From assembly GCA_027603945.1 (NCBI GenBank), contig JADIIU010000060.1, positions 16,393 to 80,392 on the forward strand: a stretch of 64,000 bases of DNA, given 5' to 3'. The notes under the pieces were generated by a model, which saw only the letters and a program-made list of their open reading frames with translations, was not told the origin of the DNA and made no database searches. Below are positions 1 to 64,000 of this stretch, one piece after another. Position 1 is the first letter of the stretch. Each line of letters opens with the position of its first letter. A program made the position numbers and the translations under genes. This DNA comes from Terramyces sp. JEL0728. Its lineage: Eukaryota; Chytridiomycota; Chytridiomycetes; Rhizophydiales; Terramycetaceae.

Positions 1-424
1 CTAACAAGGCTCTTTTGGTTTACAAGCCAAATGGGAGATTTATGTCCTGGCCTGCTATTACGGGTTCTTACTTGGTGCTTCCCAATCTTCTTGCAGAGTA
101 ATGTTTTCAGACCTGCTACCATATGGCCAGGAGGCAGAGTTCTTTTCCTTGTATGAAATCACTGATCGGGGAAGTAGTTGGATCGGGCCATTGGTAGTTG
201 GTGCAATTGGCGACGCCGGTGATAAACGCTATTCGTTTGTCTTTCTGCTGTTCATGCTGATGATACCTGTCTATATCTTTAGTAAGGTAGATACTGTAAA
301 AGGCAAGCGAGACGCCATTCAGTTTGCGTCCAAAGAGGAAGAGATGATTGCATTACGGACAACAATTCAGTCCGAGCCGCAAGAAGAAGATTTGCAACGG
401 TTGATTCAGGAACCCAATCCCTAG
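1..424 (+). pseudogene. Duplicated 3' fragment of ATG22-like transporter gene
   Basis: This stretch repeats the last exon of the transporter gene at 14297-15894. Window position 1 corresponds to 15471, inside that gene's 18-nt third intron, so the copy begins at or before the window edge. Only two differences were seen over 692 bp (A265 against C15735, A301 against G15771), both synonymous. The encoded tail (MFSDLLPYGQEAEFF... to the stop at 422-424) is identical. Whether a complete second gene lies upstream cannot be seen here; given the abrupt end of homology at 692 it is probably a fragment or an assembly duplicate. Confidence 0.8.
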
Positions 425-550
425 TTATTCATCCATAGATTTAATAAATAATACTCTTGCACATTAATCTTCCTTTGCTGCTGATGAAGATTCCAGCTCT
501 GCTTATGGAGTGTCAAAATAACTTTTCCATCTCTTTGCCACGTATATAAA

Positions 551-692
551 ATGGCTTCAAGAGATACAGACAAGGAAGTGCTAGAGTAAAACTATATTTA
601 ATTCTAGCTTTTTGGAATCCCTGGATTCACTTGATATTAAAGGATCTCAAGGACAGAAACCAGCAGCAAAACCGACATCTCAGAAACCATTT
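551..692 (+). pseudogene. Truncated 5' fragment of Mtc1-like gene
   Basis: Copy of 16021-16162: the ATG, the 35-nt first exon, the 22-nt intron and about 85 nt of exon 2 of the Mtc1-like gene. Homology stops abruptly after 692, where unique sequence of the PhzF-like gene begins. No continuation of this reading frame exists, so the fragment cannot make the parent protein. It now lies antisense to, and supplies, the 3' end of the PhzF-like gene. Confidence 0.8.
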
Positions 693-1444
693 CGCTTTCT
701 CGACAATAATATTCACTATGCACTTGCGTTCAAGTAGATGCCCTTGCTCCAACTGAAAAGTGCCATACATTCCTTTTTTCTGTAGCAATCTTCCTAGACA
801 TGCACACGCACTGCCAGTTCCTATATCAAATGTAAAATACCTGGGTCTTCAATAATTTGGTTTCCCCCATCGAAAAAGAATCGTGAAGTGACCTTGAATC
901 CATCCAGTACATACAACAGAATCATATTGACTCTTAATCTTTTCATTTCAGTAATATTTGACACTGCTTTGAATAAAGAGTCAGTGTTGTCGACTTGGGC
1001 CATTAATTCTCTGATTCCAGAATGAACCCAGGTGGATTCAACAATATCCACTCCAACACAAGTATTGACATTGCGGGTCTCTTGTTCAAATGTAGCTGGG
1101 TTAGCATGGAACTTGAAATAATCATTTCTGTGTGAAATTGGAATTATCCCTGCTTTTGTTTCTATTTGATTGCACTTTCCAAACATTTTGTTGATAACGA
1201 ATGAGCTGCCCAAGGTTGGATGGCCAGCAAAAGGCAACTCAGTTGATGGTGTGAATATTCGTATTTTTTTCGTTTCTGTCAGAGTGTCTTGGATGAATAC
1301 AGTTTCCGAGAGATTGAACTGCAATGCTAATTTCAACATCCACTCTTCTGGTGTAGGAGAGGTAAAGACGCAGAGCGGATTTCCTTGCAGAATGTCTTTT
1401 TCTTCAGGACAAAACACATTTACCAATTTGTATTCCAGTTTCAT
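627..1444 (-). CDS. PhzF-family isomerase-like protein with replaced C-terminus
   Basis: Exons 841-1444 and 627-820, intron 821-840 (20 nt). The predicted protein is 265 aa. PhzF/DAP-epimerase-fold signatures are GNPLCVF near the N-terminus, FAGHPTLGSSFV, and EDPGTGSACA, the last restored only when the intron is removed. The family includes the bacterial phenazine isomerase and eukaryotic MAWBP-like proteins; the substrate here is unknown. The last about 17 codons (KWFLRCR... to the TGA at 627-629) are antisense to the duplicated Mtc1 fragment and bear no relation to a PhzF terminal strand, so the duplication breakpoint at 692/693 has replaced the native end. The gene may be slightly truncated yet could still fold; activity is uncertain. 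Confidence 0.78.
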
Positions 1445-1637
1445 TCCGAGATTGCAAATTTAATTGGAAACATTGCCAAGAATATTCTTACGGGACATCA
1501 AGCAAACGCAGTTGACAGCTCGATTACAAATACTACCATGTAGGAATGAGGAAAGTATTTCACGGTGTTGGCCATTGACGAAATTATTATCCCTGCTTAG
1601 TTTCATGCGAATGTGTTGGAGCTGTTAACACCTTTTA

Positions 1638-2485: not shown

Positions 2486-4263
2486 ATGGCAGACATTCAC
2501 TCTCTGGTACAAGAATATCTATCGCTCGATCAAAACCCAACTACAAACAAGGAAATTAAAGACCTTTATGGCAAAAAGGAGCTTGCCACCCTCAATTCAC
2601 TATTGACTGCCAGATTAGAGTTTGGAACTGCAGGATTGAGAGCGGAAATGGGTGCAGGATATTCTAGAATGAACGAGCTGACTGTCATTCAAGCTACGCA
2701 AGGATTATACAGCCATTTTAATTCTACTGTCCCAAATTTCGCTACTAAAGGAGTAGTCGTGGGGCATGATCACAGGTTCAACTCCGATTCATTTGCGAAA
2801 TTAACCGCGGCAGTGTTTCTATCGAAAGGAGTCAAGGTTTATTATTTAAAAGGATTGGTTCATACTCCGCTTGTCCCTTTTACAGTCACTGATACTGGTG
2901 CAGCTTGTGGTGTTATGATCACTGCCAGTCACAATCCTAAACAAGATAACGGATACAAAGTCTATGCCGGTAATGGATGTCAAATTATTTCACCAACTGA
3001 CAAGCAGATTGCACAGCAGATTTTGCAAAACTTGAAGCCATGGACTTGGGATTATGATTTGGTAAACAAAAGTGACTGTGTTGTTGAAAAAACAGTAGAG
3101 TTTAAAGAAAAGTATTTCAAGAGGCTGGCAGGAATCAGTCACTTTCCAACAAAGACAAAGAACGTAAAGTTTTTGTATACCGCCATGCACGGTGTCGGAC
3201 TGGAATTCGCCCAAAAATCATTTACAGCTTTTAATTTATCTGAATTTGAAGTGTGCCAAGAACAAGGTAGTTGTTTCTAACTCAGTCTTGCCTGACCCTA
3301 CTTTCCCAACCGTCAAATTCCCTAATCCCGAAGAAAAGGGGGCTTTGGATTTGGCAGTAAAGGCTGCAGATAGCGTGGATGCCAAGATCATCCTCGCCAA
3401 TGATCCTGATGCAGATAGACTTGCCCTCGCTGAGAAAGTCGGTGACAAGTGGCACGTATTTACTGGCAACCAAATTGGTATTATCCTCGCTAGTTTTATC
3501 CTTGAATCCTACAAGGAAAAAGGACAAACTGCAAATTTGGGTGTATTGACCACTGCTGTTTCCAGTCACATGCTGGAAGAATTTGCAAATGTCAATGGGC
3601 TAAGGTTTGAAGAAACTTTGACTGGATTTAAATGGCTGGGAAACAGAGCAATTGACATTGAAAGGGAGGGAACCAAAGCGATATTTGCATACGAAGAAGC
3701 TATTGGTAAGCTGCTTTAATGTAGGTTTCATGTGCCATGATGTTGTCAAGGATAAGGACGGTGTTTCTGCTTTAGGTGTCTTTGCAGAATGGGCAAACCA
3801 CTTGTACGGTAACGGCCAAACTGTTTACGGTCACTTGCAAAGTCTTTACAAATTGTATGGATACTGGGTATCTCAAAACTCTTACTTTATCTGTCACGAC
3901 AAGCAAACTATCGCTAAAATATTCGACAAGATTCGTTACGCTCTCAATACTACTGCTTTGGATTATCCAAGAGAAATAGGAGGCTTTAAAGTGATTTACG
4001 TCAGAGATTTGACTGTCGGATACGACAGTTTAGCTCCCGACAACAAACCCACTTTGCCAGTATCCAGCTCTTCGCAGATGATTACCTTCAAACTTGAAAA
4101 TAATTGTTTGATTACGCTTCGCACCAGCGGCACCGAACCTAAAATCAAGTACTACACAGAGTACAAAGGTAAAGATGCTGAATCTGGCAAAACTGAACTT
4201 GCAGCCATCGTTCAAAGCATGGTTGACAACCTCCTTGAACCTCAATTAAACAATCTTCAATAG
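2486..4263 (+). CDS. PGM2: Phosphoglucomutase/phosphopentomutase (PGM2 type)
   Basis: Exons 2486-3266, 3286-3705 and 3725-4263; two 19-nt introns (3267-3285, 3706-3724), each ending with a CTAAC or TTAAT box close to the AG. The protein is 579 aa, the usual length. It interconverts hexose- or pentose-1- and 6-/5-phosphates in the cytosol. Visible motifs: FGTAGLRAEMGAG, the phosphoserine loop ITASHNPKQDNGYKVY, the metal-binding DPDADR, the sugar loop EEAIGFMC (joined across intron 2) and the phosphate-binding LRTSGTEPKIKYY. The start is the first ATG before the conserved N-terminus (MADIHSLVQEYLSLD). Without splicing the frame breaks twice; with it the alignment to the family is continuous. 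Confidence 0.95.
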
Positions 4264-4312
4264 GCATCCAATAAATCATTGCTCGACTCTAGTGAATTTA
4301 CATGCGAAAAAG

Positions 4313-6229: not shown

Positions 6230-7135
6230 ATGCCAATCATAGAGGTTAATGGAAATCAATTCAATTACGAATTAAAAACAGTTTCGCCAGCTTCGCCATT
6301 GCTCGTGTTACATCACGGAGGTGGCCATTCGCTCCATTCATTTTCACTGCTTGTAAAGAACTTGAATTACAACACACTGACTTTTGATTGCAGACAACAT
6401 GGATTAACAGACACTACGAATGACTCTGATTTATCTCTCGAAACGTTAACCAATGATCTTGTGTCCCTCGTCCAGAAATTTGAATACAAGGAGCTCGTGC
6501 TGGTTGGACACAGTACACCTATCTAATGTAGGTATGGGAGCACCAGTAGTAATATCGGCAATGCCGAGACTGAAAAAGGTGGTTGGGATAGTTGTGCTGG
6601 ATGTAGTGGAAGGCACGGCGATAGAAAGCTTGGGGATGATGACAAGTATCTTGATGCGCAGACCAAAAAGTTTCAAGAGCAAAGAAGATGCTATCGAATG
6701 GAGTTTGAAAAGCGGCGGAAAGAATTTGGAAAGCCTAAAGGTATCTGTTCCTGGACAATTAAGAAATGTCAATGGCAAGTACTACTGGAGGACAGACTTG
6801 GAATCGTCTAAAATATACTGGCAAGGTAAGAAACTATAGACTATTTGCGATATGTCTATAATACTTGGGTACTAATACCAGGGTGGTTTGAAAATATGAG
6901 CGAAAAGTTCCTCTCCTGTAAATGTGCAAAGTTACTGGTTTTGGCAGGAGCAGATAGACTAGACAAACCGTTAATGATTGGCCAGATGCAGGGAAAGTTC
7001 CAGCTGATAATCATCCCTGAAAGTGGCCATTTAATCCAGGAGGATGTGCCAGAGAAATTGGCGGTTATAATTGACGAATTTTACAAGAGAAACCAACCAC
7101 TAGATATTACCAAGATAAGAAAGCCATTGCAATAA
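6230..7135 (+). CDS. PPME1: Protein phosphatase 2A methylesterase-like (PPME1)
   Basis: Exons 6230-6512, 6532-6825 and 6882-7135; introns of 19 nt (6513-6531) and 56 nt (6826-6881). The 276-aa alpha/beta hydrolase removes the C-terminal methyl ester from the PP2A catalytic subunit. The nucleophile elbow GHSMG is created by splicing: AGT (Ser) is split by intron 1. Family-specific stretches are LHHGGGHSLHSFS, TFDCRQHGLT, RRPKSFKSKEDAIEWSLKSG, WRTDLESSKIYWQGWF and ESGHLIQEDVPEK, which carries the catalytic His. It is shorter than animal PPME1 because it lacks the N-terminal tail. The stop codon sits inside an AATAAA signal. The second intron is the longest resolved in this window. Confidence 0.93.
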
Positions 7136-14296: not shown

Positions 14297-15894
14297 ATGG
14301 ATACATCTCCAGTGACTGATAAAGAGATATTCGGATGGCAGTCGTATGGGTTTGCATCCGAGGCTTTTGCTGCGTTAGGCAAGTATCGCTAACATAGGTC
14401 TTGCAGTGTTTTTCCCTATAATACTGCAACAAATGGCAGCCCACTCGGCATACGATGTGAATCACCAGCCATGTAACATTACTGGATCATACAAATGCAC
14501 GATAGACATATTCTTTATCAGCGTCGACACTTCCTCAGCGGTTTTTTTTGCTTCTTCGATTTCAGTACTGTTTCAGTTTATTCTATTTATATGTCTAGGA
14601 TCTGTTGCTGATTATGGAGAGTATAGAAAGAAATTTATGATGGGGTTTGGATACCTTTCGGCTGTAGTCGGACTGGGAATGTTGCTAATTGTTGATTCAA
14701 AATTATTTAAAACCGCAATTCTAATTTATATACTTGGAAGTGTATTTCATGGAGCCTCCTATGTTTTCTTTTACAGCTATGTCCCGATACTAACGAGATT
14801 CCATCCAAAAGTAATTGAAAAAAAGAATACACAAGAGTATTATAAAGTAATGGATAAAATCGGTAACGATATCAGCAGCGCTGGATTCATGTACGCGTAT
14901 TTCGCCTCAGTATTTGAATTGGTGGTAGCTTCAATTATCGTCTTTGTACTTGGAAACGGCGAGGACTACGGATTGCCAGATGTATATCCGCTACAGATAG
15001 GAATCGCATTTGCTTGCATATGGCAAGTAGTTGTAATGGTTAAATACACTGAGCCTAATCTAAAATCCAGAGCTGGCCCGCCTTTACCTCCAGGAGAGAA
15101 TTTCGTTGTGTACTCAATCAAGAACTGTAATTAATATTAACCTAGTACAAATCACATTATCAAAAGCAAGGCAACTAAAGGAATTATTCATGTTTCTCTT
15201 GGGCTGGTTTGTATTCAGTGATGGGATAAGTACAGTTTCAACTGTCGCGATTTTGTACTGCCAATCAGAATTAGGTGTATCACAGATTGGCTTGCTGGCT
15301 GCCGCTATACTAACTCCACTAGCTGCTGGGATTGGAAACTTTACCTGGATTAGGATTCAAGCAAAGTACAAACTTACTACACAACAGACACTAGTTATAC
15401 AGTGTATAATGCACTGCTTGCTGCCTGTTTGGGGGTTAATTGGATTCTTTACACCTAAAGGTATTTGATACTAACAAGGCTCTTTTGGTTTACAAGCCAA
15501 ATGGGAGATTTATGTCCTGGCCTGCTATTACGGGTTCTTACTTGGTGCTTCCCAATCTTCTTGCAGAGTAATGTTTTCAGACCTGCTACCATATGGCCAG
15601 GAGGCAGAGTTCTTTTCCTTGTATGAAATCACTGATCGGGGAAGTAGTTGGATCGGGCCATTGGTAGTTGGTGCAATTGGCGACGCCGGTGATAAACGCT
15701 ATTCGTTTGTCTTTCTGCTGTTCATGCTGATGATCCCTGTCTATATCTTTAGTAAGGTAGATACTGTAAAGGGCAAGCGAGACGCCATTCAGTTTGCGTC
15801 CAAAGAGGAAGAGATGATTGCATTACGGACAACAATTCAGTCCGAGCCGCAAGAAGAAGATTTGCAACGGTTGATTCAGGAACCCAATCCCTAG
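14297..15894 (+). CDS. ATG22/UMF1-like major facilitator, vacuolar amino-acid effluxer type
   Basis: Exons 14297-14378, 14398-15126, 15146-15460 and 15479-15894. Introns: 19 nt with a GC donor (14379-14397), 19 nt (15127-15145) and 18 nt (15461-15478). 513 aa, about 12 membrane segments. Family marks: FGWQSYGFASEAFAALGLAV at the N-terminus and CRVMFSDLLPYGQEAEFFSLYEIT in the penultimate region. Fungal Atg22 exports amino acids from the vacuole after autophagy; that role is assumed by family. The last exon and its 3' flank are duplicated at window positions 1-550. Confidence 0.9.
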
Positions 15895-20593: not shown

Positions 20594-20729
20594 TATAAAA
20601 GAAAACATTCGGACTGCGAATTTCCAACACGAGCAAAGATTGCCAACTTGTAAAATATTGTTATAAAATTGCAATTTATTCTTAAAAAGCATTCTTGGCA
20701 ACTATTCTTCACTAAGATTAGGGATAATA

Positions 20730-23700: not shown

Positions 23701-26210
23701 TTTTCCACAAACCCCCGGGATTCTGGAGAGTGATCATCTTTGGTAAAGTGAGGTAAAGTGCGATCTTTGAAGCCAAAAGGAATACGTTTACCCTCGACAT
23801 TTTGTTGTCCTACACACGCTGTCATCTGGGAAATATTCAGGAAAGAGCCTTTGGACCCAGCGACTACCATCTGCTTGACATTGTTAAATTCTTTGAGCGA
23901 TTTTTGGGCACTCTTACCAGCATTATCTCTCGCTCTGTTCAGTTCCATGTTAACCAAGGATTCGAACGATTGTCTAATTGTCATACCAGGCAAGCATTCC
24001 AATTCATTATTTTGAGCCTTGAGAATAATTCTATTTACTTCTTTTTTAGCATGAGCAATAGTATCATTAATCGCTTTCATTGTGCTCTTATCAGCAATAG
24101 TATCTCCGATACCAATCGAGAATCCGTTTTGCAATAGCCAGTAATTGACAACGGCTTGTGTTCCGTTAAAGAAATCCTTGGTAATTTCTGGTCCGTGTTC
24201 ATTCATAGAAGTGTGGATAACACCACTGGCGCTGGAGCCAACAGTTTTTTTACACAAAATTCCAGCAAGCAGCTCGCCGTTTTCAATGATTACTCTGGTG
24301 TCGCCGGGACTGATATCGGTTGTTTCATCATCCGGATGAGTGCTGTGGAAACCAATCATGTTGATTTGTGGGATGATGATAGACATTACTTGTTTGGCGG
24401 TCCATAAAGGAATAGGCTTCAAGATTGCAGGTTGTGGTATAATACCATCCCAGTTTGGCACCCACATTAGCAAGTTCATCAGCAAATCCCTATGCAAAAA
24501 GGTATCCCTTTTGGTGAATTTACGAATTCCACACAATGTGTCTTGTACAATACCCATAACAGGTGCGTTCTTTTGCGGCGAAACTATTTGCTTTGGCACC
24601 ATGCACAATTGCTGGATTTCTGCTCTGGTTTCGTGAGATTGAGGAACATGCAAGTTCATTTCGTCACCATCAAAGTCAGCATTATATGGTGAAGTTACAG
24701 ACAAGTTGAGCCTGAATGTGCTGTAAGGCATAATTTTAACCCTGTGGCCCATCATACTCATCTTGTGAAGAGATGGCTGACGGTTAAAAATGATATAGTC
24801 ATCATCCAGCAAGTGGCGTTCCACCTTGTATCCGTACTGCAAGTGAATATCTCCACCTCTTTTGCTATAACGAAGATCGATACGCTCACCAGTATCTCTG
24901 ATCACATACTTTGCTCCAGGGTGGAGATTAGGTCCATTTCGAACCATTTGAGAAAGGGTTTCAAGATTGTACGGAGTAACAGTTTCTGGAAAAGTCAAGT
25001 TTCTAGCAATTGATCTTGGCACCCCAACTTGATCAATTGAAAGATTAGGGTCACCGGTAATGACAGTACGTGCACTAAAATCGACACGTTTGCCCATCAA
25101 GTTTCCACGCAAACGACCCTCTTTACCCTTCAATCTAGCACGAATAGATTTGATCTAGTTTAGAATTAAAATACAGGTCTTCCGGACTTTTGCGACGCTT
25201 GTGGAATGCCAGCAGTTTCATTATTCATATAGGTACATACATGCCACTGCAGCAAATTTTCCAATTCTGCAATGATGTGACTTGGAGCACCATCAACATC
25301 ATGTTTTTTCAAATTTGTATTGGCTTTGATAATATCACTCAATTTGTGCGTCAAATCGTCTTCACCACGACCCATACCATCCATACTAATTGATGGGCGA
25401 ACAGGCATCGGAGGAACAGGAAGCACAGTTAAAATCATCCATTCAGGTCTGGCCCAGATTGGTGAGAGACCCATTTTCAAACACTCCTCGTCAGTAATCT
25501 TGATCAAGACTTCAAGAGCTTTAGAAGCAGATACTTCCATCGTTCTAGCTTCAATTTTTTCTCCATCCTTTTGTTAAAAAAAAATACTTCATCGCTGGAT
25601 GCTTTGAAACTAGCAGTTAAAGTTAGCCCTTTTAATCGAAAAGTAGGTTGTCTTTGGCCACATCCACCATGATTATGTTTGACTTTCCCTTGATCTCCTT
25701 CCAAATTCTCTTCAACAGCACAAATAGTTTTTCCTTTTGACAAACTCCATATTTCTTGAAATTTTCTCGCATTGTTTTTAACGGTTTGAGCTCTCTTGAA
25801 CCTGAAATCAGATTCATCGCTCTTGATCTTACTACAGAAAAAGCAAACAGTTTCTAATGTTTTTTTGATTTTTTTCAAATAACCTGAATAAGAAAGAGTT
25901 ACCAGCATGATATACAGGTTTAGCAAATTCAATATGGCCAAAATGCCCAGGACAGTCGGTCATACTTTCTCCACAAGTTTGGCACTTGAAATTGCGATCT
26001 ATTGTGCCCATTCGCGGATCTAGCAATCCTCCATGTTTTGGTTTGTCATTCTCCATCGTTTCTGGAAACTCAATTAACGCAACAGACATTGCTTTCTTAT
26101 GTTAGATTATAAATTACAGTTTCTTCTGGAGCCAAAATCCCAAATTGGACGTGATTGACCACTTTTAATGGAGCAGAAGAATGAGGAAATCCATGAACAT
26201 TTGCAGACAT
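20730..26210 (-). CDS. RPB1: RNA polymerase II largest subunit
   Basis: Exons 26118-26210, 25903-26095, 25588-25883, 25175-25567 and 20730-25154; introns of 22, 19, 20 and 20 nt. 1799 aa. Clamp zinc motif [20 protein letters not shown], second zinc site HNHGGCG, the active-site [10 protein letters not shown] with three Mg-binding aspartates, the trigger-loop region [17 protein letters not shown]. The C-terminal domain carries about 28 heptads, nearly all exact YSPTSPS, then a few variants (YSPTSPA/T/N) and an acidic end EEEE. All four introns lie in the first 360 codons; the 1475-codon last exon is uninterrupted. The ATG opens the family N-terminus ([18 protein letters not shown]). Confidence 0.98.
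20915..21520 (-). repeat. RPB1 CTD heptad-repeat array
   Basis: About 28 tandem 21-bp units coding for YSPTSPS. Codons vary between units although the peptide hardly does, indicating selection on protein rather than recent DNA expansion alone. Confidence 0.9.
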
Positions 26211-26741: not shown

Positions 26742-27243
26742 TTATTTAGCAATACCAATGACTCCACATGCAACTCTGCCACCAGCATTGCCAGTAGTCT
26801 TGGAGAATTCATGAGTAGTCTAAATTAGCAACAAGTTACCAAACCCAAATCATCTTGATCAGCATGCAAGACAACAGTTCTTCCAACAACGCTGTGAGGA
26901 CCGTACAGTTTGATTTGCGAATCAGTAATGGTAGTTTCAACTTTACCATTTGCATCTGCCTTTACATTTCCTAAATCACCGACATGGCGAACGGAAGCGT
27001 CTGGAGCACCGTGAGTATGGCCGTTTGGGTTAAAGTGGCCACCAGCGCTAACACATCCGTTAGTGTTATCACCGAATTCATGGACATGGAATCCATGTAA
27101 TCCTGAAATTAGTAATTTTTACCTGGGGTAAGACCAGAAAGGGAAATTTGGATGCTAGTTGGTTGAGATTCAGCTTCTTGAGTGAATGTTACAGTTCCGG
27201 TTGATGGAGAGTCGCCCTTCAATACGCAAACAGCCTTGACCAT
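26742..27243 (-). CDS. SOD1: Cu/Zn superoxide dismutase
   Basis: Exons 27123-27243, 26840-27102 and 26742-26819; introns 27103-27122 and 26820-26839, both 20 nt. 153 aa, exactly the family length. Copper/zinc ligands are visible in [30 protein letters not shown] and [27 protein letters not shown] closes the protein with the second disulphide Cys. No signal peptide, so cytosolic. The TAA stop lies within AATAAA. Confidence 0.97.
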
Positions 27244-28617: not shown

Positions 28618-29799
28618 TTAGAAACGAGCAGGCGGCAATTCGGGTTTGTTTTCAAGAATATCATCGATTTTCTTCATAATTTCATCAGACAATTTTCCAA
28701 CTACTGTCAACGAAGCTAGATTTTCTTTGACTTGAGAAGGCCGTGAAGCTCCAGTAATGACTGACGAGACATTCTTGTTCTTCAAGCACCATGCTAAAGC
28801 TAATTGAGCCAACGTGCAATCAAGTTCTTTAGCAATTGCTAATAGTGATCGGACTTTTCCTTGCTTGAGTTTCCCTTCATCGCTTTCAACCAAGTTCTTT
28901 CGCATTCTAGCCATCTATGTAAAATCAATATTACCATTGCATCGTTTTTGATTCCTAATCGCGAATCTGGAGGAATCCCGTCCAGGTATTTCCCAGTCAA
29001 AACTCCAGATGCTAGTGGAGACCAAATAGTTGTTCCAAGACCAAACTTTTTGTACAATGGCGCATACTCTAATTCAAATCTCTCGCGGTGGAACATATTG
29101 TATTGTGGTTGTTCCATCAAAGGACCAACTAGCCCCAATCTCTCTGCAACTCTGTGAGCATCCATTAATTGCTCCGCACTTTTTAGAGATGATGTACCTC
29201 CATTCGCTTGTCCCCCAGTAGAATGCAAGTCCTTGATCTATGCACCAATTGAATGCGCGCACCGTTTCTTGATTAATCAACAAATACCCTCCATTGGAGT
29301 ACTGCGTCAATTAAATATTACCTAATTGTTACAAACAAAAAACCAATCATCTAGAAATTAACGGATTATACCTGGTCGATGAGCAAATACCAAGTCGACA
29401 TAGTCCAGCTGCAACCTCTTCAAACTAGCTCGCAATCCTTCTGCAATATGCTTGCGAGACAATCCACGATCGTTAGGGCCGCTCCCTGCCCAGTAAAGTT
29501 TAGTTGAAATAACTAATGAGCTCCTCGGCCATTTATACTTTTTGATTGCCTCTCCGATAACCCTTTCGGATTCACCAGCAGCGTATACTTCGGCTGTATC
29601 AAAAAAGTTAATTCCAGCATCGTATGCTACCTTCAAGCATTCAAATGTCGTATCTGGTTAATTGCGATTTACCATCTGTTACTTGCTTACCGAATGTTAC
29701 CCACCCTCCAAGAGATAATGCGGACACTTTGAGGCCATCCGTTAATGAATTCGTACCTGAATTGCCCAAGAAGCGATATTCCATTTCAGCTGTACTCAT
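28618..29799 (-). CDS. Aldo-keto reductase, Kv-beta/YghZ subgroup, with 7-nt exon
   Basis: Exons 29673-29799, 29372-29653, 29344-29350, 29288-29301, 29198-29267, 28935-29178 and 28618-28914. Introns of 19, 21, 42, 20, 19 and 20 nt. 346 aa NADPH-dependent oxidoreductase. Motifs: [20 protein letters not shown] (Asp, Tyr), STKLYWAG (Lys), VFAHRP followed by [27 protein letters not shown] [39 protein letters not shown]. The only in-frame route from HRP to TPMEE uses a 7-nt exon ATGATTG and a 14-nt exon. A 21-nt intron-like segment at 29736-29756 is kept in this model because it lacks an AG. Confidence 0.87.
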
Positions 29800-40337: not shown

Positions 40338-41334
40338 ATGAAGGAAGAACCTGGACAAGCAAAGTAAAGCCTGTATTAATCAGCAGCTTGGCAAAGAAAC
40401 TGCTCAGCGGGGCTATAGCCGGGGTAATCGGAACCTGCATGTACATTAAAACTTACTTAGAATATTTCCTCTCGATATAATAAAGACCAGACTGCAAAAC
40501 TCATCAACGCAGTACAGGGGAATGTAATATTTATTAATGGCAGGTTGCATGCAGCCACAACAATGTTTAAAGCTGAAGGAATTGCAGGATTTTACCAAGG
40601 ACTTGTACCAAATCTTGCTGGTATTCAATTATTTATAAGGGATCATTCCAGAAAAAGCAATCAAATTAGCTGTAAATGATTATGCAAGGGAATATTGGGG
40701 AAGAGAGTTGAATATGCATGCAGACGAGATACCGTTGAAATACGGGATGCTGTCTGGAGCTACTGCAGGGCTTTGTCAAGTTATTGCTACAAACCCAATG
40801 GAAATTGTTAAAATCCAACTTCAGTTAGCAGGACTACAAGGGAAAACCCTCTCTGCGTCTCAGGTAGTTAAAGAAATGGGGATAAGAGGGCTATATCGTG
40901 GCACAACTGCTACGCTTGCCAGAGATGTGCCCTTTTCTATTGTATTTTTTTCGTCAGTATCATTATTTAAACAACTTGGAACGCCAAAGAACGAACCAAC
41001 GCCATTCTCTACTATTTTTGCAAGTGGAATTGGGGCTGGTGCTATCGCATCTGCATTAGTTACTCCTATGGACGTTGTCAAGACTAGATTACAAGTTAAG
41101 CACAGGGAAGGCGCTATTGTTTACAAAGGACAACTGGATTGCTACAAGTACTATTCCTTAATATAGATCAATCATTGCAAAAGAAGGTCCGCAAGCACTA
41201 TTTAAAGGATGTGTACCAAGAGTATTGATTGTATCTGTAACCTGTTTCTAATTTAGCCATTGTTTGCCATCACTGTTGTGGTTTACGAAATTCAGCAAAG
41301 GTTTTTTACATTCGAACAGCGACTTTTCGCTTGA
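40338..41334 (+). CDS. Mitochondrial carrier, glutamate/aspartate-glutamate carrier type
   Basis: Seven exons: 40338-40363, 40384-40440, 40461-40523, 40544-40620, 40640-41147, 41167-41236, 41257-41334; six introns of 19-20 nt. 292 aa, standard for SLC25. Three carrier repeats are visible: KLLSGAIAGVIGTCIIFPLD followed by IIKTRLQN, ATNPMEIVKIQLQ, VTPMDVVKTRLQV. The stretch IIPEKAIKLAVNDYARE is typical of the glutamate and aspartate-glutamate branch. Four introns crowd the first repeat. Inner-membrane location is inferred. Substrate assignment is by this branch-specific motif only. Confidence 0.92.
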
Positions 41335-50913: not shown

Positions 50914-51924
50914 ATGACTACTCCAAACAACCTTCCAGCATCTACTAGCAATTACTTTGATATCACAACATATCAAGAAACCGCAACCTTCCTGATCAAT
51001 AAACTACCGTCCCACTTGAAAACTATCAAGCTTGGAGTTGTCTGTGGAAGCGGCCTTGGTGGACTAGTAGAATGCTTTGATGGAGAAACCGTATCGTTCG
51101 ATTACAAGGATATCCCTCACTTTCCTGTCTCGACTGGTAATTTTATCTTGATCTAGTTCATGGCCACGCAGGAAAGTTTGTATTTGGGATGATTGGCAAC
51201 ACTCCAACCGTTTGTATGCTTGGTAGAATGCACTTGTACGAAGGACATCCTCCAATTAGAACAGCCTTCCCAATTAGAATCATGCGTCAGCTTGGCGCAA
51301 CTAATTTGATTGTTACAAACGCTGGTATTTGATATTAATGGTAGCTGGCGGACTGAACAAGGATTTCAATATTGGAGATTTCATGATTATCAAAGATCAT
51401 GTTTCGTTTGCTGGCATGGCCGGCCAAAATGCTTTAATCGGCCACAATATCGAACAATTAGGACCTAGATTCCCGCCTGTATCTGACGCTTATGACTTTG
51501 ATTTAAGAGTCACGGCAGCACAAATAGGGTTTGATTTAGGATTAGAATCTACCCTTCGTGAAGGCATCTATACTTTTGTTGGTAAGCTTATCTAATGTTA
51601 GCTGGTCCTAGTTTTGAAACCAGGGCAGAAGCCAGATTCCTCCGTGATGCATTACATGGAGATTGCGTTGGCATGTCAACAGTACCGGAGGTTATTGTTG
51701 CCAAACATTGCGGATTAAGAGTGTTGGGCTTATCGCTAATTACAAACAAAGTTTCTGTTGGATACGGAAGATCCGCACTTGAGCATGTTCGCAACAAAGG
51801 CTCTTTGAATGGTTTGGCCGATGATGAATTGAATTTGGCCAGTCACGAAGAGGTCTTGGAAACAAGCAAAGCCAGGTCGATAGTGTTTACAGATTATGTA
51901 AAGAAAATTATCAAATCTCTTTAA
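50914..51924 (+). CDS. PNP: Purine nucleoside phosphorylase (trimeric type)
   Basis: Exons 50914-51136, 51157-51324, 51345-51581 and 51602-51924; three 20-nt introns, all phase 1 after a G. 316 aa. Cleaves purine nucleosides with phosphate in salvage. Motifs: [10 protein letters not shown] phosphate loop, [29 protein letters not shown] (restored by intron 2), [16 protein letters not shown] (restored by intron 3), [25 protein letters not shown] with the base-binding Asn. Confidence 0.96.
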
Positions 51925-54998: not shown

Positions 54999-57829
54999 TT
55001 AGTCGTGCCATTCAGCACCAGTTGTGAGCGCGATAAAGGCATACATATCGGCTTTCTTTTCGAGGATCTTTGAAATAGGTTGGCCAGCGCCGTGTCCCGC
55101 TTTGATATCTACGTAAAGCAATAATTACCAATACGGCCTAGGACAGTGTTTCCTTTTTTGTGCTGCATTTCAGCAATTAGCTTTAATGAATGCAACGGAA
55201 CTACACGGTCATCATGATCTCCAGTCAAAATCATAATCGGCGGGTTCTTTCCAGTAACATTGTGTAATGGTGAAATCTTTTTCAAAACTTCAAAATCTTC
55301 CTTGACATCTGGGTCTCCATAGTCTGACTTCCAAGCATAGCCAATTGTGAATTTGTGGAATCTGTATAAATCCATGACACCAACTTCAGCTACCCCACAT
55401 CCAAATAGTTCAGGGGCTTGGTTAATGCAAGCACCAATTAACAGTCCGCCATTGCTTCCGCCATTAATAGTGATCAAATTATGAGACGTATATTTTTCCT
55501 GGACCAAGAATTTCGCTGCGTATTGGAAATCATCAAAGACGTTTTGCTTATTCTTCAATCTGCCCTGATTGTGCCAGTTTAATCCAAACTCACCGCCACC
55601 TCTCAGGTTGGCAAAACAGTAGATTCCATTAAAGTGCTCTACATACGAGAGAATAGGCGGAGAGAACGTTGGCAAGATCGGAACACCAAACCCTCCATAG
55701 CCATACAAAACTGCTGGATTGGACGAGTTCAATTCCATGTTTTTCTTGTGGATAATGTACATTGGGATTGTTGTACCGTCTTTAGATGGATAAAAGACTT
55801 GGGTTGTTGTGAGTGATTCCAGATCCATTTTAACTTTCTGTTTGATTATCGATTGGGAAGCATTAAAATCGTATTTAAGAATTTCACCAGGAATAGTGAA
55901 GGATGTAATCTTGTAGAAAAAGCAGTCGTCCTTTTCTTTCCCAATGATTTCAGCAACCATCGCTCCGGTAGGCAATTCAATGTTCTTTACAAACTGGCCA
56001 TCAATGTCGAATAACTCCAACACATGTTGAACATTTTCTAGCCTTACAGTTACAAAGTGGTTGTTGATCAAATCAACTTGCTCCAATACGCTATCTTTTA
56101 CAGGGATAACGGTGGTAAATCCTTGTTCGGGTTTAGAAACATCATAGGAAACCATTTGCTTGTTTGGGGCATTGTGAGTGCTATGGAAATAGAAGACACT
56201 ATCCCTGTTACAAACAAATGTGTATTGGAATTCAAATTTGTCCACAATTGGGATTAATTTCAATTCTTCTGTTGGATTTGCACTAAATTAAGTTTGTTTT
56301 ACACATAGTTGTTGAATTCTTCCATAGTAGCGTAGAATACAACATTCTGCGGCTCCGCTATCGGTTAACAAACGGTTACTTCCAGGCATGTCTTCAATGA
56401 CTATATATTTCCCATCTTTGGTTTGATGGGCATTGGAAAAGTTTGTGTTGATAGAAGATTGGAATATCTTGACATCCTTATCTTGGGGTTCATTTAATCT
56501 GTGGAAATACACTGCCGACCCCAAATTAAGGTCAGTTTCGGTTCCAGCTTTAGATTTATCAACAGCTGGCTTTGGATATTTGATGTACATAAACCCACTC
56601 TCATCAATTAGCCAATTAATTGAAGTGAACTTTGCCCTAGCATTACCATCAATTACCACTCCAATGGTTCTCCAATTTTTGCATTTGTCACTGTATCCAG
56701 TACATGAAGAGATACCCAATCAGAACCTGATTCTGATAATGCATACCCAAAATACCTACCGGATTTTGAAAAATCATAAGTTGATAAGGAAACAGTGCCA
56801 TCACTAGATAGTGTATTTGGATCAAAGAATATTTCTCCCTTTTCTCCCAATATCTTTGTTCGGTAAATGACAGACTGCCCTTGTAATCCGGCATTATAAA
56901 AGTAATAATAAAAATCTCCATGTTTTTGATAGGAAGAATACTTTTCATAGTCGGCAGTTTCCTTTAACTTTGCAGTAATCTTGTCTACAGGATAGTTGGA
57001 CAAGAATTTACGAGTAAGTGCAGCCTGTTCACGAACGAATTTTTCAGTTTCAGGCGAATCTGGATCTTCTAGCCAACGATACGAATCAGAAACAAGATAT
57101 CCGTGTAAATCTTCTGTTAAATCCTGTCTCCTTGCTTCAGGATATACAATTGGATACTTTGCTTTCAATGAGGTCAGTGGTTTCAGTAAGCTGTAAATTT
57201 GCGAATCATTGATATCAAGAGTTTCTCCGACTGCAATTTTCAAATCAGACAATGGAATATGGACCGAATCAAATCGAACAAGTTTCTTTTCGTCAATTTG
57301 AAGATCTTCCAATTTTGGTTCTTCAGATGAAGGGGAAGCTGATAAATCTCCGTTTGAAATTGCAGAATAATTGGACTGGATGTAAACTGAGACACCGACA
57401 TCTACCGGTTCATCTTCAAAATGAGGAATAAATCCTTTTGATCCGTAATACACTAATTTTTCATTGATTAAATGTTTTTGAATCGCCTCTCCGTAATCTG
57501 ACTGATATTTAAGGTGAAGAATATAATTTGATACAGGGATTTCCTTTTCAAATTCAATTTTTGCAACACCTCCAGCATTTGTGATTGAAACTGCTTCCTG
57601 AAAATCCCGGTTGGTTACAGGATCCTTTGCCCAGTTTAGAGGCTGGAAAGCAACTACAGAGCAGTCAAAAATTGACAAGTGATTTGCAGCTAAACTGATA
57701 CTTTTTGTTGGCTTGGATAAAGAAAAGCTTGTTAGTGTGAATCTACCTGATTGACAACTGGCCCGCGAATTTAGTCTTGCCAAATCCCACGGTAAGCTGA
57801 TATTTAGTCGCCTTTATCATTTTAATCAT
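54999..57829 (-). CDS. M1-aminopeptidase-type N-domain fused to prolyl oligopeptidase (S9A)
   Basis: Exons 57747-57829, 56657-57727, 56380-56636, 56303-56357, 55129-56282 and 54999-55108; introns of 19, 20, 22, 20 and 20 nt. 909 aa against about 710 for ordinary prolyl oligopeptidase. Residues 1 to about 130 match the beta-rich N-domain of M1 aminopeptidases (YQLTVGFGKTKFAGQLSISF, SISLAANHLSI, a short EIPVSNYILHLKY). After a linker, the S9A propeller starts at YPIVYPEARRQD and RWLEDPDSPETEKF. Catalytic triad: Ser in GGSNGGLLIG, Asp in GDHDDRVVP, His in IKAGHGAG, the last joined over the final intron. M1 catalytic HExxH is absent. The domains are joined inside one uninterrupted exon. Confidence 0.9.
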
Positions 57830-58240: not shown

Positions 58241-60651
58241 ATGAACATTAAAATCCCACCAACCCCGACATTAAACACACCATCAGCAATAGCTCTGTTT
58301 ACCCCATTGGAAAATTCCGAATCGCCAACATCGATATTTGAGCAGAAATCACACGAGGAAATCACAATATCTTCCGAATTGAAGCAGCGCATTTCTTCTG
58401 TTTTAGCGACCGAAAGCCAGGATTTTCAAATTATTCCTACTTTAAATGAATTATTTCCAAATGAAGAATCACTAGAAAAGGCAGATGAAATCCTGGAAAA
58501 GACTAGAGGCAGTATAAAGAGGCTGGATTCTGCTCTTCACAATTTGATTCAGCAACACTCAAAGGAGAAAAATACAAAAATAATAAAGAGAATACAAACA
58601 GATATCAACGTATCTCAAGTCTAATTTAGGAATTAGTAAAGCGAACAGAGGAGATTAAAAAGAAATCAAGAGTCTGCGAGAGTGTGATTGTAGAAATTAC
58701 GCGTGATATAAAAGCGTTGGATGAAACGAAAAAGAATCTTGGGGTATCAACAAGGATATTAAAACGCATCTACTACGCTGTTAATGCGCTTGAACAATTG
58801 AAGCAGTTTGCAACAAACAAGCAATATGACCGCGTTGCAGAACTCATGGCGGTAATGCAGCACTAATCCAGGTAACCTTAAAGTTGATGGAACCATTAAA
58901 ACCAATGAAAGATGTTGCTCAAATAGTAGCGCTTTGTGAACGTTCAAAAGCATTTCAACAAGAAACCAGAAAGGCAATATTTACCGAATTTGAACAGGTA
59001 TTTGCTTCTGGATTGTTTTCAAACTCTGCACAGTTACTATTTGATTCGTGTTTAGTTTTGGAAACTCTGGAAGATGATGCAAAGTAACTGCTTTTAACGT
59101 TAGAGGAGGATTAATCAAATGGTATACAGATTTGCAATTGGCTGATTACAGAAATTTATTCAAAAAAAATCCAGAATTAGCAGGATTGTCAGATGTGTCA
59201 AGACGGTATTCATGGCTGAAGAGGTTCTTGAAAACGTTTGACGAACAGCATGCTCAACTTTTCCCAGAGCCCTGGAAAGTTGATGACGCAGTAACTCTAC
59301 AATTCTGTTTAGAAACAAAGAAGGATTTAGCTGCAATAATGACAAAATCTGAGCATGATAGCACTTTTGATACTATGGCCATGCTGCAGGCGATTCATAC
59401 TACTGTTGACTTTGAAGGAAAGCTGGATATGCGATTTTGCAAGCATCAAGAAGTTCACAAATACGCACATGTACTTACAAGTTCTTTTGATTCATTCTTG
59501 TGGCATTACATTGATATGGAAGATCACAACTTGTCTGAAAAGTTTGAACCACTAAAGCTAGCGCTAGGTGAAATGGAAGAAGGAATTTATTCATCCAGTG
59601 TAGATTTGTTCCTATCCTATAGACAAACATTTGGAACTTGTGCCAAATTGTCAATCAAGAAACCATTTTTCGATTTGTGCAAAATGTATCAGAAATGGCT
59701 CAACAAATATAAAGACTGCCTTTGTGCAAAACTGCCAAAGGACGATAGAAAATTACTTTCTGAAGACGAGTTGGTCAATCTTTGTGCGATAATTAATACA
59801 TCTGACTATTGTACCGCTACTACTACCCAAGTAATTTCAATATAACGCTAGCTCGAGGAGAAATTGATCGAAACGATAGATACCGATTTCAAAACGCTGG
59901 TTAGTTTTGCAACAGAAAGCGAGGCTTTTGCAACGTACAATACAGCTAATCTAGAACTACTGCAACTGCTTTACTGGTCTTGGTAAAGACGGTTGAAAAT
60001 TATTTTGGAAATGCCCTGAATATATTGTCTAAAAAGAATTGGTCGGCATTATCATCAGTTGGCGATCAATCTGAACATGTTACGCTAATAGCACAAGTAC
60101 TATCACAAAACATTCCAATAATTCGAAGATCGCTGACAAACCAAAAGCATTTCCGTTCATTCTGCGACAAATTTGTAGAAACTTTTCTCAATTCCATCCA
60201 AACTACGATTTTAACTAGATGTAGACCAATGTCTGAAGTTGGAGCTGAGCAAATGTTGCTTGATACTCACTCGATAAACAGTATTCTTGTTGCAATGACT
60301 ATGCTTGGAATCGAAGAAAAGACTCAACCACCAGCATCGTTCACCAAAATCCTTGCTCGGGGAATAGCAAGAATCGATAACCTTCTCAAAGTAGCACTAC
60401 GGCCAATTGATCCCCCAGAAGCTATTGTCGAGACATACTTTTTACTCTTTACCGACCCAAATGTCAATGAACTGCAGAAAATATTGGAGCTCAAGGTAAT
60501 TTGCAATTTATGCTAGGGTCTTAAACGCACCGATATGAATACTATATTGGACTTTTTTGTTCAGAAAGCACCTCCAAGTGCCAAGATCAAACTTGAACCC
60601 GAGCAGCCATCTAAATTCAGGTTGAATTTCAGCAATTTCATTAATAAATAA
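58241..60651 (+). CDS. VPS53: VPS53, subunit of the GARP/EARP tethering complexes
   Basis: Exons 58241-58609, 58630-58851, 58872-59083, 59104-59830, 59852-59934, 59955-60495 and 60517-60651; introns of 20, 20, 20, 21, 20 and 21 nt. 762 aa. Tethers endosome-derived vesicles at the Golgi. Family stretches: DIKALDETKKNLGVSTRILK, RIYYAVNALEQLKQF, ADYRNLF...RYSWLKRF, LFPEPWKVDD, LCAIINTSDYCTATTTQLEE and LELKGLKRTDMNTILDF. Long coiled-coil near the start. AATAAA and the TAA stop overlap. All splice junctions were fixed by matching the conserved sequence. Confidence 0.93.
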
Positions 60652-61441: not shown

Positions 61442-61690
61442 TAATAATTTGATTTTTTCTTGTCTTTGGTCCCCTTTAAATGCGATTTGACTCCCGAATT
61501 ACATCAAGGGACTCAGCCGCATGGCGAATGGTCTTTTAGTTACCCTATGAAGAGTATGCTCCAACGACAAGTGATTGGTAGATCAAGTTATTTACTCAAT
61601 TTCAGCAGCTTCAACGGCCCTTGAAATGTTCTCATTTGTGCACTGGTTTGACGCGGAAAACACAGAAAACTAGAAATACTCTATATTTTA

Positions 61691-62380
61691 TTACTTTTTT
61701 AGTAACGTTGGAGGAGTAAATGTGTCCTGCGGTTTGGTTGAAAGTAGCTCTGGTACTTTATATACTTTTGGCGGGGCAGTAGGCACAGGCTCCCAAGGTT
61801 TATCCTCCCTATATTTCGCACCAACCTGGCTTTGGTACTCGTTTACGATAGTGCTATTAACTTTGGTTTGAAATCCAACATCACTTTGGCTTTTTCTATC
61901 CAAAGGATCTTCTAATTCATTGTAATTTTTGAAATTATTAGTATATGGAAGATTGGTGCTAATGGTATTGTATCCTTGTGTTTGGGCCGGTCTAGGATAA
62001 GTTGTTGCATCAATAGTTGGGTCGAACAGCGCAATATCTACTTTTGATGGATATCCATAGGCTGCTGGCGGTGTTGGTGGGTTAAAAGCATTTTGCGGAG
62101 TATAAGTTGGAGTAGCTGGTTGCGAATATGTTGGGGTAACTGGTCGAGAGGAACCTTGCTGAGAATGATTGTTTGGCTCCATTTGAATAGTCGTACTAAC
62201 ATTCGATTCGCTGTGCTTTGGTTGCCAATGGGTGATTCTCCTCTTCATTTTATGATAAGAATCTTCTCTGGCCATATTTTCTTCCTTTTCTGGGAGATAG
62301 AATGATAACAGCAGTCCTCCAAATAACAGCACAAACACTGCAACTCCAATAATAGGCCCGACCGTTGCAAAATCAACCAT
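61691..62380 (-). CDS. Single-pass membrane protein with proline-rich cytosolic tail
   Basis: Single exon, 229 aa. One N-terminal hydrophobic segment (VGPIIGVAVFVLLFGGLLLS), then a basic cluster (HKMKRRI) and a Pro/Ser/Thr/Tyr-rich tail (PTYSQPATPTYTPQ, PTAPPKVYKVP). No ectodomain precedes the helix unless an upstream exon was missed. Lies between two genes of similar layout on the same strand; possible signalling partner, which is inference. Confidence 0.65.
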   Translation of the reverse strand: MVDFATVGPIIGVAVFVLLFGGLLLSFYLPEKEENMAREDSYHKMKRRITHWQPKHSESNVSTTIQMEPNNHSQQGSSRPVTPTYSQPATPTYTPQNAFNPPTPPAAYGYPSKVDIALFDPTIDATTYPRPAQTQGYNTISTNLPYTNNFKNYNELEDPLDRKSQSDVGFQTKVNSTIVNEYQSQVGAKYREDKPWEPVPTAPPKVYKVPELLSTKPQDTFTPPTLLKK

Positions 62381-62710
62381 TGATTGTCCAACTTTTCATC
62401 TGCTTTTAAAGTGCCTCTGGCCAGCGCCGCAGCGAGAGTTGAAACAGCAATCTCAAAACTTGAAGGCAAAGCGTGGGCTACATGAATAATACTAACCAAA
62501 TAAGTAATTTCGAATCGGCCTGTGAGCTTTGTTTATATTCTAATTGCTCGGTTGAGATTTGCGTTTCTCGGCTGTTTCCTTTTGCGTAATTCGGCACGGT
62601 ACAAAACGTGTTCAACCAATGACTCAAAATACTTTATTGTTAAATAACACACTGCAATACAGCCACTACATAGCTGCTGAAGCTACCACCACTAGCACTA
62701 CTATTTGGAA
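62381..62710. other. Intergenic, nothing recognised
   Basis: Short plus-strand frames here have no motif support. It separates two minus-strand membrane-protein genes. Confidence 0.45.
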
Positions 62711-64000
62711 TTATTCAAAACTTTCGGGTTGGTTTCCCAAACTTTCTTTTGTTGAAGTGGCATCTATCTCAGGGTCTACGATATCGCCCAAAGTATCTTT
62801 GAAATCGGGATTAGGATCACTGAATGGTTGAACAGGCGGGGTTTCATATCCAGACAGCGCTTCTCTACTTTGTTCAAGTTCCAAAGATCCTATTTCCGGA
62901 ATATCTGCAGCATTTTCAACCTGCTCGGACAAACTGTTATTAGCAGTTTCAAATCTTGGAGGTTGATCTCTGGTTTCTTCAATTGATTGCTCAGAATCTG
63001 TCACTTCAACTGGAATTGGAACATCTGGAACAATATTAGCTGCAGGCTCCAATGTGAATTCTTCTACCATTAATTGAAGACTAGGTTCTAATGTTTCATA
63101 CGGTAAATCCACTCCGCCGACAGCTGATTCTCTGGTTTGTTTCTCCAATTGTTCAAATGTAAGAGCTGTTTTTCCTTGCGCTTCCATTCTACTTTGTTCG
63201 CTTCCAACATAACTAATTGCTCTAATAGAATGATCAAGATCTGTTTGGAACACATCGAGCGCAATTTGAGAATCCTCGCCAGTGGTGTTAAAAATGTCTG
63301 ATGGGTGATATATATCGCTATGAATTCTATCCACTTGGTTTGCAGTGTGATACGAAGCAGACATGCTTGGTGAATTAACTGGGCTAATGTCCATTATTGG
63401 TGCAGTATTGAAATGCATATTATCTAATGAGGGATACTGACTGTACCGATCCGTTCCTATTATTGAAGATCTAGTAACAGAATAAGCGTCAACAGGGATT
63501 TGCGGTTCATGAAAATCGGCATAAGTATGCACTCCATTGTTGGGAATTACGTGTTCTGAATAATTACTTGAATTCCTGAACGAATCAGTATAATAATCCG
63601 ATTGCGATTGTCTTTGCGGATGTAAATAATATCCGGGAATATGCTCGTACTGAGGCTGTAGATAAGGGCTTTGAGGGTGAATTGGTGGATGATATGCGCC
63701 AGTAGAGTAATGACTGACGCTAGCGGTCGATATTGCTGGTGAATGAAAAGATAGATTTGAATGGATGCTCTCCGTTACTTGATCAAAGTGTGTCTCCTCT
63801 ATGGTAATCGCTTGCTCCGTCCTACTTTTTCGAAGAAATGACAGTGTCCCTTTTCTTTTTCTTTCCAGTGTCATTGGTTTCAATGATAATTTTGCTTCAT
63901 AGCGACTCTCTTTTTGATTGCAGCAGAAGGAACAGCAAGCGAATAAGATGATAATTCCCAATACTACGCCGCCCGCAATGTAGTATGTATTGTACTTTGG
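62711..64000 (-). CDS. Single-pass surface protein 2, 5' end beyond window
   Basis: The frame is open to the window edge, so the N-terminus is missing. Visible part: a membrane helix (IAGGVVLGIIILFACCSFCC), the juxtamembrane segment RYEAKLSLKPMTLERKRKGT resembling the 60707-61441 protein, and a long acidic, Ser/Tyr-rich cytosolic tail of about 380 residues ending NQPESFE. Probably a receptor or sensor with a large cytosolic region. No catalytic domain recognised. Confidence 0.7.
   Translation of the reverse strand, partial: PKYNTYYIAGGVVLGIIILFACCSFCCNQKESRYEAKLSLKPMTLERKRKGTLSFLRKSRTEQAITIEETHFDQVTESIHSNLSFHSPAISTASVSHYSTGAYHPPIHPQSPYLQPQYEHIPGYYLHPQRQSQSDYYTDSFRNSSNYSEHVIPNNGVHTYADFHEPQIPVDAYSVTRSSIIGTDRYSQYPSLDNMHFNTAPIMDISPVNSPSMSASYHTANQVDRIHSDIYHPSDIFNTTGEDSQIALDVFQTDLDHSIRAISYVGSEQSRMEAQGKTALTFEQLEKQTRESAVGGVDLPYETLEPSLQLMVEEFTLEPAANIVPDVPIPVEVTDSEQSIEETRDQPPRFETANNSLSEQVENAADIPEIGSLELEQSREALSGYETPPVQPFSDPNPDFKDTLGDIVDPEIDATSTKESLGNQPESFE

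Follow-up and report, generated by a model that had tools for sequence, protein, structure and literature searches.

The 64,000-nucleotide (nt) stretch of DNA analysed in this study, hereafter the window, corresponds to bases 16393-80392 of one contig in an assembly of 15,016,339 bases and 231 contigs. Among its genes are those for RPB1, PPME1, VPS53, a phosphoglucomutase-like (PGM-like) protein, an aldo-keto reductase, a mitochondrial carrier, purine nucleoside phosphorylase, prolyl oligopeptidase and Cu/Zn superoxide dismutase, and all of these are predicted to be interrupted by introns of approximately 20 nt. At the level of the genomic sequence, the pattern of ultra-short introns (mini-introns) is confirmed as real, and these segments are considered, with a probability of roughly 0.93, to be U2-type spliceosomal introns of a chytrid fungus with a nearly fixed geometry. 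After splicing, the RPB1 core of the window (1,454 residues searched) was 100% identical to a protein of Terramyces sp. JEL0728, followed among the named relatives in the matches listed by Gorgonomyces haynaldii (76%), Kappamyces (76%) and Batrachochytrium dendrobatidis (74%). Judged from its proteins, with RPB1 as the vertically inherited gene, the genome is that of a chytrid fungus, either Terramyces sp. JEL0728 (Chytridiomycota, Rhizophydiales, Terramycetaceae) or a near-identical strain, which bears out the fungal-type genome proposed in an earlier annotation made from the letters of the window (the initial annotation). Strain JEL0728 is presumably a free-living saprotroph. Members of Terramyces are listed from pollen-baited samples of soil, river water and lake water (available portion of PMC11210171).

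Homology alone placed 26 introns in seven genes, of which 24 are 19-22 nt long, one is 56 nt and one is 42 nt. The protein-to-DNA aligner used here applied a single flat penalty to any intron of 12-400 nt and had no length preference. Six RPB1 proteins (first 420 residues), six aldo-keto reductases and eight mitochondrial carriers, taken from the 120 proteins listed per search, were aligned to three of the genes, and 15 introns were recovered with identical boundaries by 6/6 RPB1 proteins, 6/6 reductases and 7/8 carriers. The eighth carrier homologue, a truncated Boothiomyces model, yielded no introns in its alignment. A segment of 80 nt at the start of the carrier gene, obtained from one carrier protein only, was excluded from the count. 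Homologues of the other four genes from the Protein Data Bank (PDB) added 11 further introns, and barring introns shorter than 25 nt reduced the alignment scores from 509 to 485 for PPME1, from 598 to 492 for purine nucleoside phosphorylase, from 1460 to 1387 for prolyl oligopeptidase and from 433 to 378 for superoxide dismutase. The introns placed by homology are as follows.

26096..26117, minus strand: RPB1 intron 1, 22 nt; 6/6 fungal RPB1 proteins, and the public Terramyces RPB1 junction agrees
25884..25902, minus strand: RPB1 intron 2, 19 nt; 6/6 homologues, public RPB1 agrees
25568..25587, minus strand: RPB1 intron 3, 20 nt; 6/6 homologues, public RPB1 agrees
25155..25174, minus strand: RPB1 intron 4, 20 nt, at KSGRP^IKS; 6/6 homologues, public RPB1 agrees
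29654..29672, minus strand: reductase intron, 19 nt; 6/6 homologues, 8/8 in an earlier run
29351..29371, minus strand: reductase intron, 21 nt, followed by the 7-nt exon ATGATTG; 6/6, 7/8 in the earlier run
29302..29343, minus strand: reductase, 42-nt removal, or two introns of 22 and 20 nt placed back to back (AG|GT), the exon between them having zero length; 6/6 for 42 nt, 7/8 in the earlier run
29268..29287, minus strand: reductase intron, 20 nt, preceded by a 14-nt exon; 6/6, 8/8 in the earlier run
29179..29197, minus strand: reductase intron, 19 nt; 6/6, 7/8 in the earlier run (all but P0121)
28915..28934, minus strand: reductase intron, 20 nt; 6/6, 8/8 in the earlier run
40441..40460, plus strand: mitochondrial carrier intron, 20 nt; 7/8 homologues
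40524..40543, plus strand: mitochondrial carrier intron, 20 nt; 7/8 homologues
40621..40639, plus strand: mitochondrial carrier intron, 19 nt; 7/8 homologues
41148..41166, plus strand: mitochondrial carrier intron, 19 nt; 7/8 homologues
41237..41256, plus strand: mitochondrial carrier intron, 20 nt; 7/8 homologues
6513..6531, plus strand: PPME1 intron, 19 nt, in the GHSMG region; PDB 3c5w
6826..6881, plus strand: longer PPME1 intron, 56 nt, with a GTAAGA donor and a TACTAAT branch box; PDB 3c5w
51137..51156, plus strand: purine nucleoside phosphorylase intron, 20 nt; PDB 1lv8
51325..51344, plus strand: purine nucleoside phosphorylase intron, 20 nt; PDB 1lv8
51582..51601, plus strand: purine nucleoside phosphorylase intron, 20 nt; PDB 1lv8
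56637..56656, minus strand: prolyl oligopeptidase intron, 20 nt; PDB 6jci
56358..56379, minus strand: prolyl oligopeptidase intron, 22 nt; PDB 6jci
56283..56302, minus strand: prolyl oligopeptidase intron, 20 nt; PDB 6jci
55109..55128, minus strand: prolyl oligopeptidase intron, 20 nt; PDB 6jci
27103..27122, minus strand: Cu/Zn superoxide dismutase intron, 20 nt; PDB 6dtk
26820..26839, minus strand: Cu/Zn superoxide dismutase intron, 20 nt; PDB 6dtk

The short PPME1 intron had been proposed in the initial annotation as the segment whose removal restores GHSMG, and the spliced alignment places it there; the 56-nt intron of the same gene falls within the conserved YWxGWF motif. The split of 29302..29343 into 22 and 20 nt is a possible reading of the sequence, while the homologues themselves give a single 42-nt removal. 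In the earlier run of eight reductases, seven returned the same six introns; the Boothiomyces protein P0121, which was excluded from the six-reductase alignment, yielded introns of 19, 70, 20 and 20 nt, with the 70-nt intron spanning 29302-29371. Also in the reductase gene, an in-frame 21-nt insertion at 29736-29756 (minus strand), absent in 9/9 aligned homologues, has a GTA donor and a TTAAC box but a TG end, and could represent seven extra residues or, alternatively, a rare intron of GT-TG type. Separately, an RPB1 protein (P0011) and a full-length listed reductase of 333 residues (P0124) from a JGI metagenome each come from a contig of 164,736 bases, which suggests shared gene order in a relative. 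The RPB1 tail (20702-21500, minus strand) contains a long stretch of near-perfect YSPTSPS repeats; a predicted fifth RPB1 intron at 21070-21090 was judged to be coding tail repeats and is not removed in that form in the public RPB1 model, and a sixth candidate from the gene finder lies at 20712-20733.

Length preference was also apparent from motif counts and gene prediction. The pattern GT[AG]..[CT]TAA[CT]..AG occurred in the window 23 times at 19 nt and 25 times at 20 nt, compared to 4.3 and 4.8 on average across 10 dinucleotide shuffles of the window, and among lengths of 12-60 nt only these two stood out to that degree. A gene finder was then applied to 264 kilobases (kb), comprising the window and 20 coordinate-chosen stretches of 10 kb from 18 other contigs. 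When it relied on codon usage and penalised every GT..AG of 14-90 nt equally, 206 of 391 introns measured 18-22 nt, while six decoy dinucleotide pairs in the same finder gave only 18-33 introns of that size. After training, 421 of 478 candidates were 18-23 nt long (4 of 18 nt, 116 of 19 nt, 177 of 20 nt, 81 of 21 nt, 37 of 22 nt and 6 of 23 nt), with a modal predicted length of 20 nt. The 20 stretches outside the window contained 330 mini-introns in 200 kb, which extrapolates to 24,777, or approximately 25,000, in the whole genome. Predicted genes carried a mean of 2.8 mini-introns, and 123 of 151 had at least one. Because the finder misses 21-nt introns that lack stop codons, the stop codons in introns with lengths divisible by three were tabulated and left uninterpreted. 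The following predictions for the window come from the trained finder.

1..64000, both strands: 91 of 108 predicted introns are 18-22 nt; at least 2 of the 91, at 29372-29390 and 21070-21090, look false
3267..3285, plus strand: PGM-like gene intron, 19 nt; gene finder and direct reading of the sequence
3706..3724, plus strand: PGM-like gene intron, 19 nt, whose removal yields EAIGFMC; gene finder
58241..60651, plus strand: VPS53 gene with 6 predicted introns of 20-21 nt; the spliced product matches Vps53_N and VPS53_C

Within the 91, 44 introns are 20 nt, 27 are 19 nt, 12 are 21 nt, 6 are 22 nt and 2 are 18 nt, in line with the initial annotation's statement that most measure 19 or 20 nt. Its count of 81 of 83 introns at 18-22 nt agrees with these 91 of 108 and with the 24 of 26 (19-22 nt) placed by homology, and was not reproduced intron by intron; the EAIGFMC motif that it had read in the PGM gene is regained as predicted. 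The PGM-like introns are based on the gene finder, the PDB relatives being too distant for the aligner. The tabulation of intron lengths and branch motifs that it had suggested for the whole genome was carried out on the 264 kb described above. By eye, many of the 17 longer window candidates (57 in the whole sample) fuse adjacent genes, and one, of 56 nt, is backed by homology. Several other predictions were set aside: the intron at 29372-29390 looks false, its removal being contradicted by homologous proteins; a second class of introns at 50-53 nt consists by eye mostly of gene-joining artefacts; and a general GT-TG class is unsupported, with 18 of 386 in the 18-22 nt range.

The predicted mini-introns share a compact anatomy. 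All 478 candidates begin with GT (468) or GC (10), the two donors that the finder allowed, and the six decoy pairs gave no peak, in keeping with the GT-AG and rarer GC-AG spliceosomal boundaries originally described. The donor is GTA-like, with A as the third base in 399 and as the fourth in 257 of 478, and T is the commonest fifth and sixth base (213 and 270 of 478). Fungal introns usually carry G at position +5, which was found in 79 of 478 here. Of the 421 introns of 18-23 nt, 266 have a branch box of TTAAT, CTAAT, TTAAC or CTAAC, and the motif-chosen branch A lies at position 14-16 in 385 and is followed by 4-7 nt in 390, which puts the branch box close to the acceptor with nearly constant spacing, a result in part shaped by the scorer. 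The initial annotation had allowed about 10 nt between donor and branch, which is corrected here to a gap of approximately 4-6 nt between the donor hexamer and the branch box. A pyrimidine tract cannot fit between the predicted branch and AG; introns of 19-21 nt are rich in T at positions 5-9, which would place any U-rich tract upstream of the branch.

The earlier description of nearly all introns as ultra-short needs a qualification: a minority is longer, such as the 56-nt intron of PPME1, and these share the branch and acceptor signals of the mini-introns. Longer and shorter introns were compared in 334 kb of loci, after removal of 11 overlapping or short ones, with a strict filter that required a branch box and coding sequence on both sides. 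Only 4 of the 61 introns longer than 30 nt passed; G at +5 was present in 4/4 of them compared to 23/126 short introns (one-sided Fisher p 0.0015, a post hoc value in that three of the four longer introns had been noticed before the test was designed). Unfiltered, the proportions were 13/61 and 93/523, and under a looser filter 24% of 21 long and 14% of 199 short introns, so the contrast in +5 G is based on few cases.

During splicing, the branch is bound by SF1 and its box pairs with U2, the donor pairs first with U1 and later with U6, and U2AF65 binds a pyrimidine tract. A canonical U2 small nuclear RNA (snRNA) with an intact branch-binding GUAGUA was identified at 140.2 bits (L009). Outside the window, the genes for U2AF65, SF1 and a U1-C-like protein (L040, L048 and L053) are themselves split by 4, 3 and 3 predicted mini-introns, respectively, and removal of these improved their profile matches: U2AF_lg, at first a match of 251.7 bits with a detached end piece of 27.9 bits, became a single match of 334.0 bits (cut-off 310.3), SF1-HH rose from two pieces of 66.2 and 42.9 bits to 113.5 bits whole, and zf-U1 from 52.4 bits (positions 7-38) to 69.0 bits (positions 1-38). 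U2AF65 and SF1 are present, and are retained despite the lack of room for a pyrimidine tract between branch and AG. The inspection of snRNAs and of SF1 and U2AF that had been recommended at the outset thereby succeeded for U2, SF1 and U2AF65, while the U1 and U6 RNAs were not located. Several candidates for the latter were rejected. The U1 RNA start ATACTTACCTG occurred in 4 places, below the 12 of a reversed control, and the U1 candidate L039 reads as coding sequence with its own mini-intron, the protein motif being presumably phospholipase-C-like. Of two U6 patterns, the first gave no place and the three places of the second all look protein-coding; a gapped U6 pattern gave four places, judged by matched letters only; and two weak U6 matches (L011, L012) lack most of the conserved core.

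Public gene models from the sister genus Boothiomyces look frameshifted or truncated at sites where mini-introns are expected. The public Boothiomyces macroporosus reductase has a frameshift after ...FAHRP, with the frame regained through NGGIFILTSAEQ, and reading the Terramyces gene through its own 19-nt intron (29179..29197) in that frame gives an insertion equal in length to that of Boothiomyces. Because the lengths are equal, Boothiomyces probably has a 19-nt intron at the matching place, read through by the public model. The truncated Boothiomyces carrier model (P0253, 205 residues) is consistent with the same mini-intron trouble.

There are several potential explanations for these segments other than splicing by the spliceosome. 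Sequencing or assembly insertions, or frameshifted pseudogenes, might be suspected in a draft assembly of this many contigs whose window holds a 692-base-pair (bp) repeat that is 99.7% identical; however, insertion errors would not bear GT...YTAAY...AG at one length, the six decoy signals gave no peak and distant homologues share the exact boundaries, and this explanation is hardly credible. Repeated frame breaks would equally be expected if the segments were eliminated from DNA, as are the internal eliminated sequences of ciliates, or bypassed in translation. RPB1, however, indicates a fungus, the segments are marked by splice signals at donor, branch and acceptor, and the genome has genes for U2, U2AF65, SF1 and a U1-C-like protein, which makes such removal similarly hard to credit. 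Cleavage and ligation of RNA by a tRNA-endonuclease or a Hac1-type route would accommodate very short introns and a genome in which U1, U4 and U6 RNAs were not found; it is very unlikely given the GT-AG rule, the nearly constant position of a branch-box consensus and the rarer longer introns that share the branch and acceptor signals. It is also possible that the mini-introns are real but ordinary for the group, and already present in a genome paper or annotation. The public Terramyces RPB1 model removes four of these segments, and the Boothiomyces reductase protein shows no counterpart of 29268-29287, which means that its public model takes out sequence at that place. On the other side, no chytrid report of mini-introns appeared among the matches listed in the open-licence literature, a scope that the likely genome paper falls outside; the Boothiomyces reductase model, moreover, is frameshifted and apparently reads through a 19-nt intron. 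This last explanation is somewhat unlikely, with an appreciable chance of being right. The word "intron" is absent from the available portion of PMC11797018 and from PMC3207900.

It is also important to note the observations that weigh against spliceosomal mini-introns as described here. The branch position was set by a motif scorer and partly reflects the finder's own model. The public Terramyces RPB1 model lacks the junctions of the predicted fifth and sixth introns, and the Boothiomyces reductase protein backs just 3 of the 6 reductase introns. The exact public reductase and carrier products were absent among the 120 matches listed, and public models therefore provide no support for those genes. 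U1, U4 and U6 snRNAs were not found with Rfam models, for which part of the candidates were scored (e.g., 48 of 1,328 for U6), the best scores in that part being 27.4 bits for U6 (cut-off 44) and 20.3 for U4 (cut-off 46); U1 and U6 were likewise not found by sequence patterns. In fungi, moreover, the U6 gene may itself contain introns. Finally, the zf-U1 profile also exceeds its cut-off in an E. coli control, and the name U1-C-like therefore rests on the whole spliced match.

Splicing in RNA, the identity of the branch-point A and the recognition mode are what we infer from sequence features. The predicted geometry consists of a GTA donor, a YTAAY box with its branch A approximately 14-15 nt from the start of the intron, and an AG approximately 5-6 nt beyond that A. 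The branch box would be read by SF1/U2AF and by the U2 small nuclear ribonucleoprotein, whose GUAGUA is intact; since the donor would sit at a fixed short distance from the branch, its first three or four bases may suffice. U1/U6 and U2 would then act on a single compact unit of approximately 20 nt (intron definition), giving a lariat loop of approximately 14-15 nt and a tail of approximately 5 nt. The lack of room for a tract between branch and AG, together with the retention of U2AF65 and SF1, suggests that what is recognised is a compact unit whose spacing is fixed, and such a fixed-geometry mode is slightly favoured. A broader proposal is that this fungal lineage moved to fixed-geometry splicing altogether, in which the mini-intron donor is little more than GTA, +5 G is dispensable, no tract lies between branch and AG, longer introns have a stricter GTAAG-like donor, abutting mini-introns and exons of 7-14 nt are spliced stepwise, and the U1, U4 and U6 RNAs have perhaps diverged beyond general models; this proposal is unlikely as a whole. 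The introns presumably shrank rather than being gained small.

The initial annotation considered such lengths known mainly from ciliates and nucleomorphs. The literature adds mikrocytids, at 16-17 nt, and Stentor, at 15-16 nt, to the cases of uniformly tiny introns. In the available part of PMC4035089, the pygmy introns of the Bigelowiella natans and Lotharella oceanica nucleomorphs are mostly 18-23 nt, most commonly 19 nt, and GT-AG with few exceptions; these relic endosymbiont nuclei measure 0.37-0.61 Mb and hold 951 and 1,011 introns, and no bona fide snRNAs are reported for L. oceanica. Terramyces shares the 18-23 nt range and GT-AG boundaries, whereas its extrapolated 25,000 introns lie in a 15-Mb fungal genome, have a mode of 20 nt and are accompanied by some longer introns. 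Stentor coeruleus has introns of 15-16 nt with stringently conserved GUA as the first three bases, a branch A mostly at position 10 or 11, a conserved U2 GUAGUA and introns in 18% of genes (excerpt of PMC9505925). The narrow length, GUA start, nearly fixed branch A and U2 GUAGUA are common to both; in contrast, Terramyces introns are predicted to be 19-22 nt, with branch A at 14-15 and introns in the large majority of predicted genes. Mikrocytids, intracellular rhizarian parasites, resemble Terramyces in their uniform ultra-short spliceosomal introns, with 224 introns and a strongly reduced spliceosome in M. mackini (accessible text of PMC10245619), whereas Terramyces has far more introns and keeps U2AF65, SF1 and a U1-C-like protein. 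In the ciliates Paramecium and Nyctotherus, ultra-short introns are likewise genome-wide, at approximately 25 nt (part of PMC5014332) compared to approximately 20 nt in Terramyces. The best reading is that a fungus has U2-type introns of nearly fixed geometry, comparable to those of nucleomorphs, Stentor and mikrocytids; they appear to occur throughout the genome at a length close to the known minimum for splicing. If RNA confirms this, uniform introns of 20 nt evolved in a fungus that still encodes U2AF65, SF1 and a U1-C-like protein, such introns would not be confined to relic nuclei, ciliates and parasites with reduced spliceosomes, and the minimum substrate of the spliceosome would become testable in a fungal group with public genomes. 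The findings also warn that gene models of this family can be frameshifted by unrecognised introns, as that of the Boothiomyces reductase apparently is.

Two repeats were observed elsewhere in the window. The 692-bp direct repeat (1-692 and 15471-16162, approximately 15.5 kb apart) holds the end of a gene that we take to encode an Atg22-like transporter. A tandem direct repeat of one gene, presumably P-type ATPase-like, occupies 30320-34563 on the minus strand, in copies of approximately 2.1 kb with 93.9% identity.

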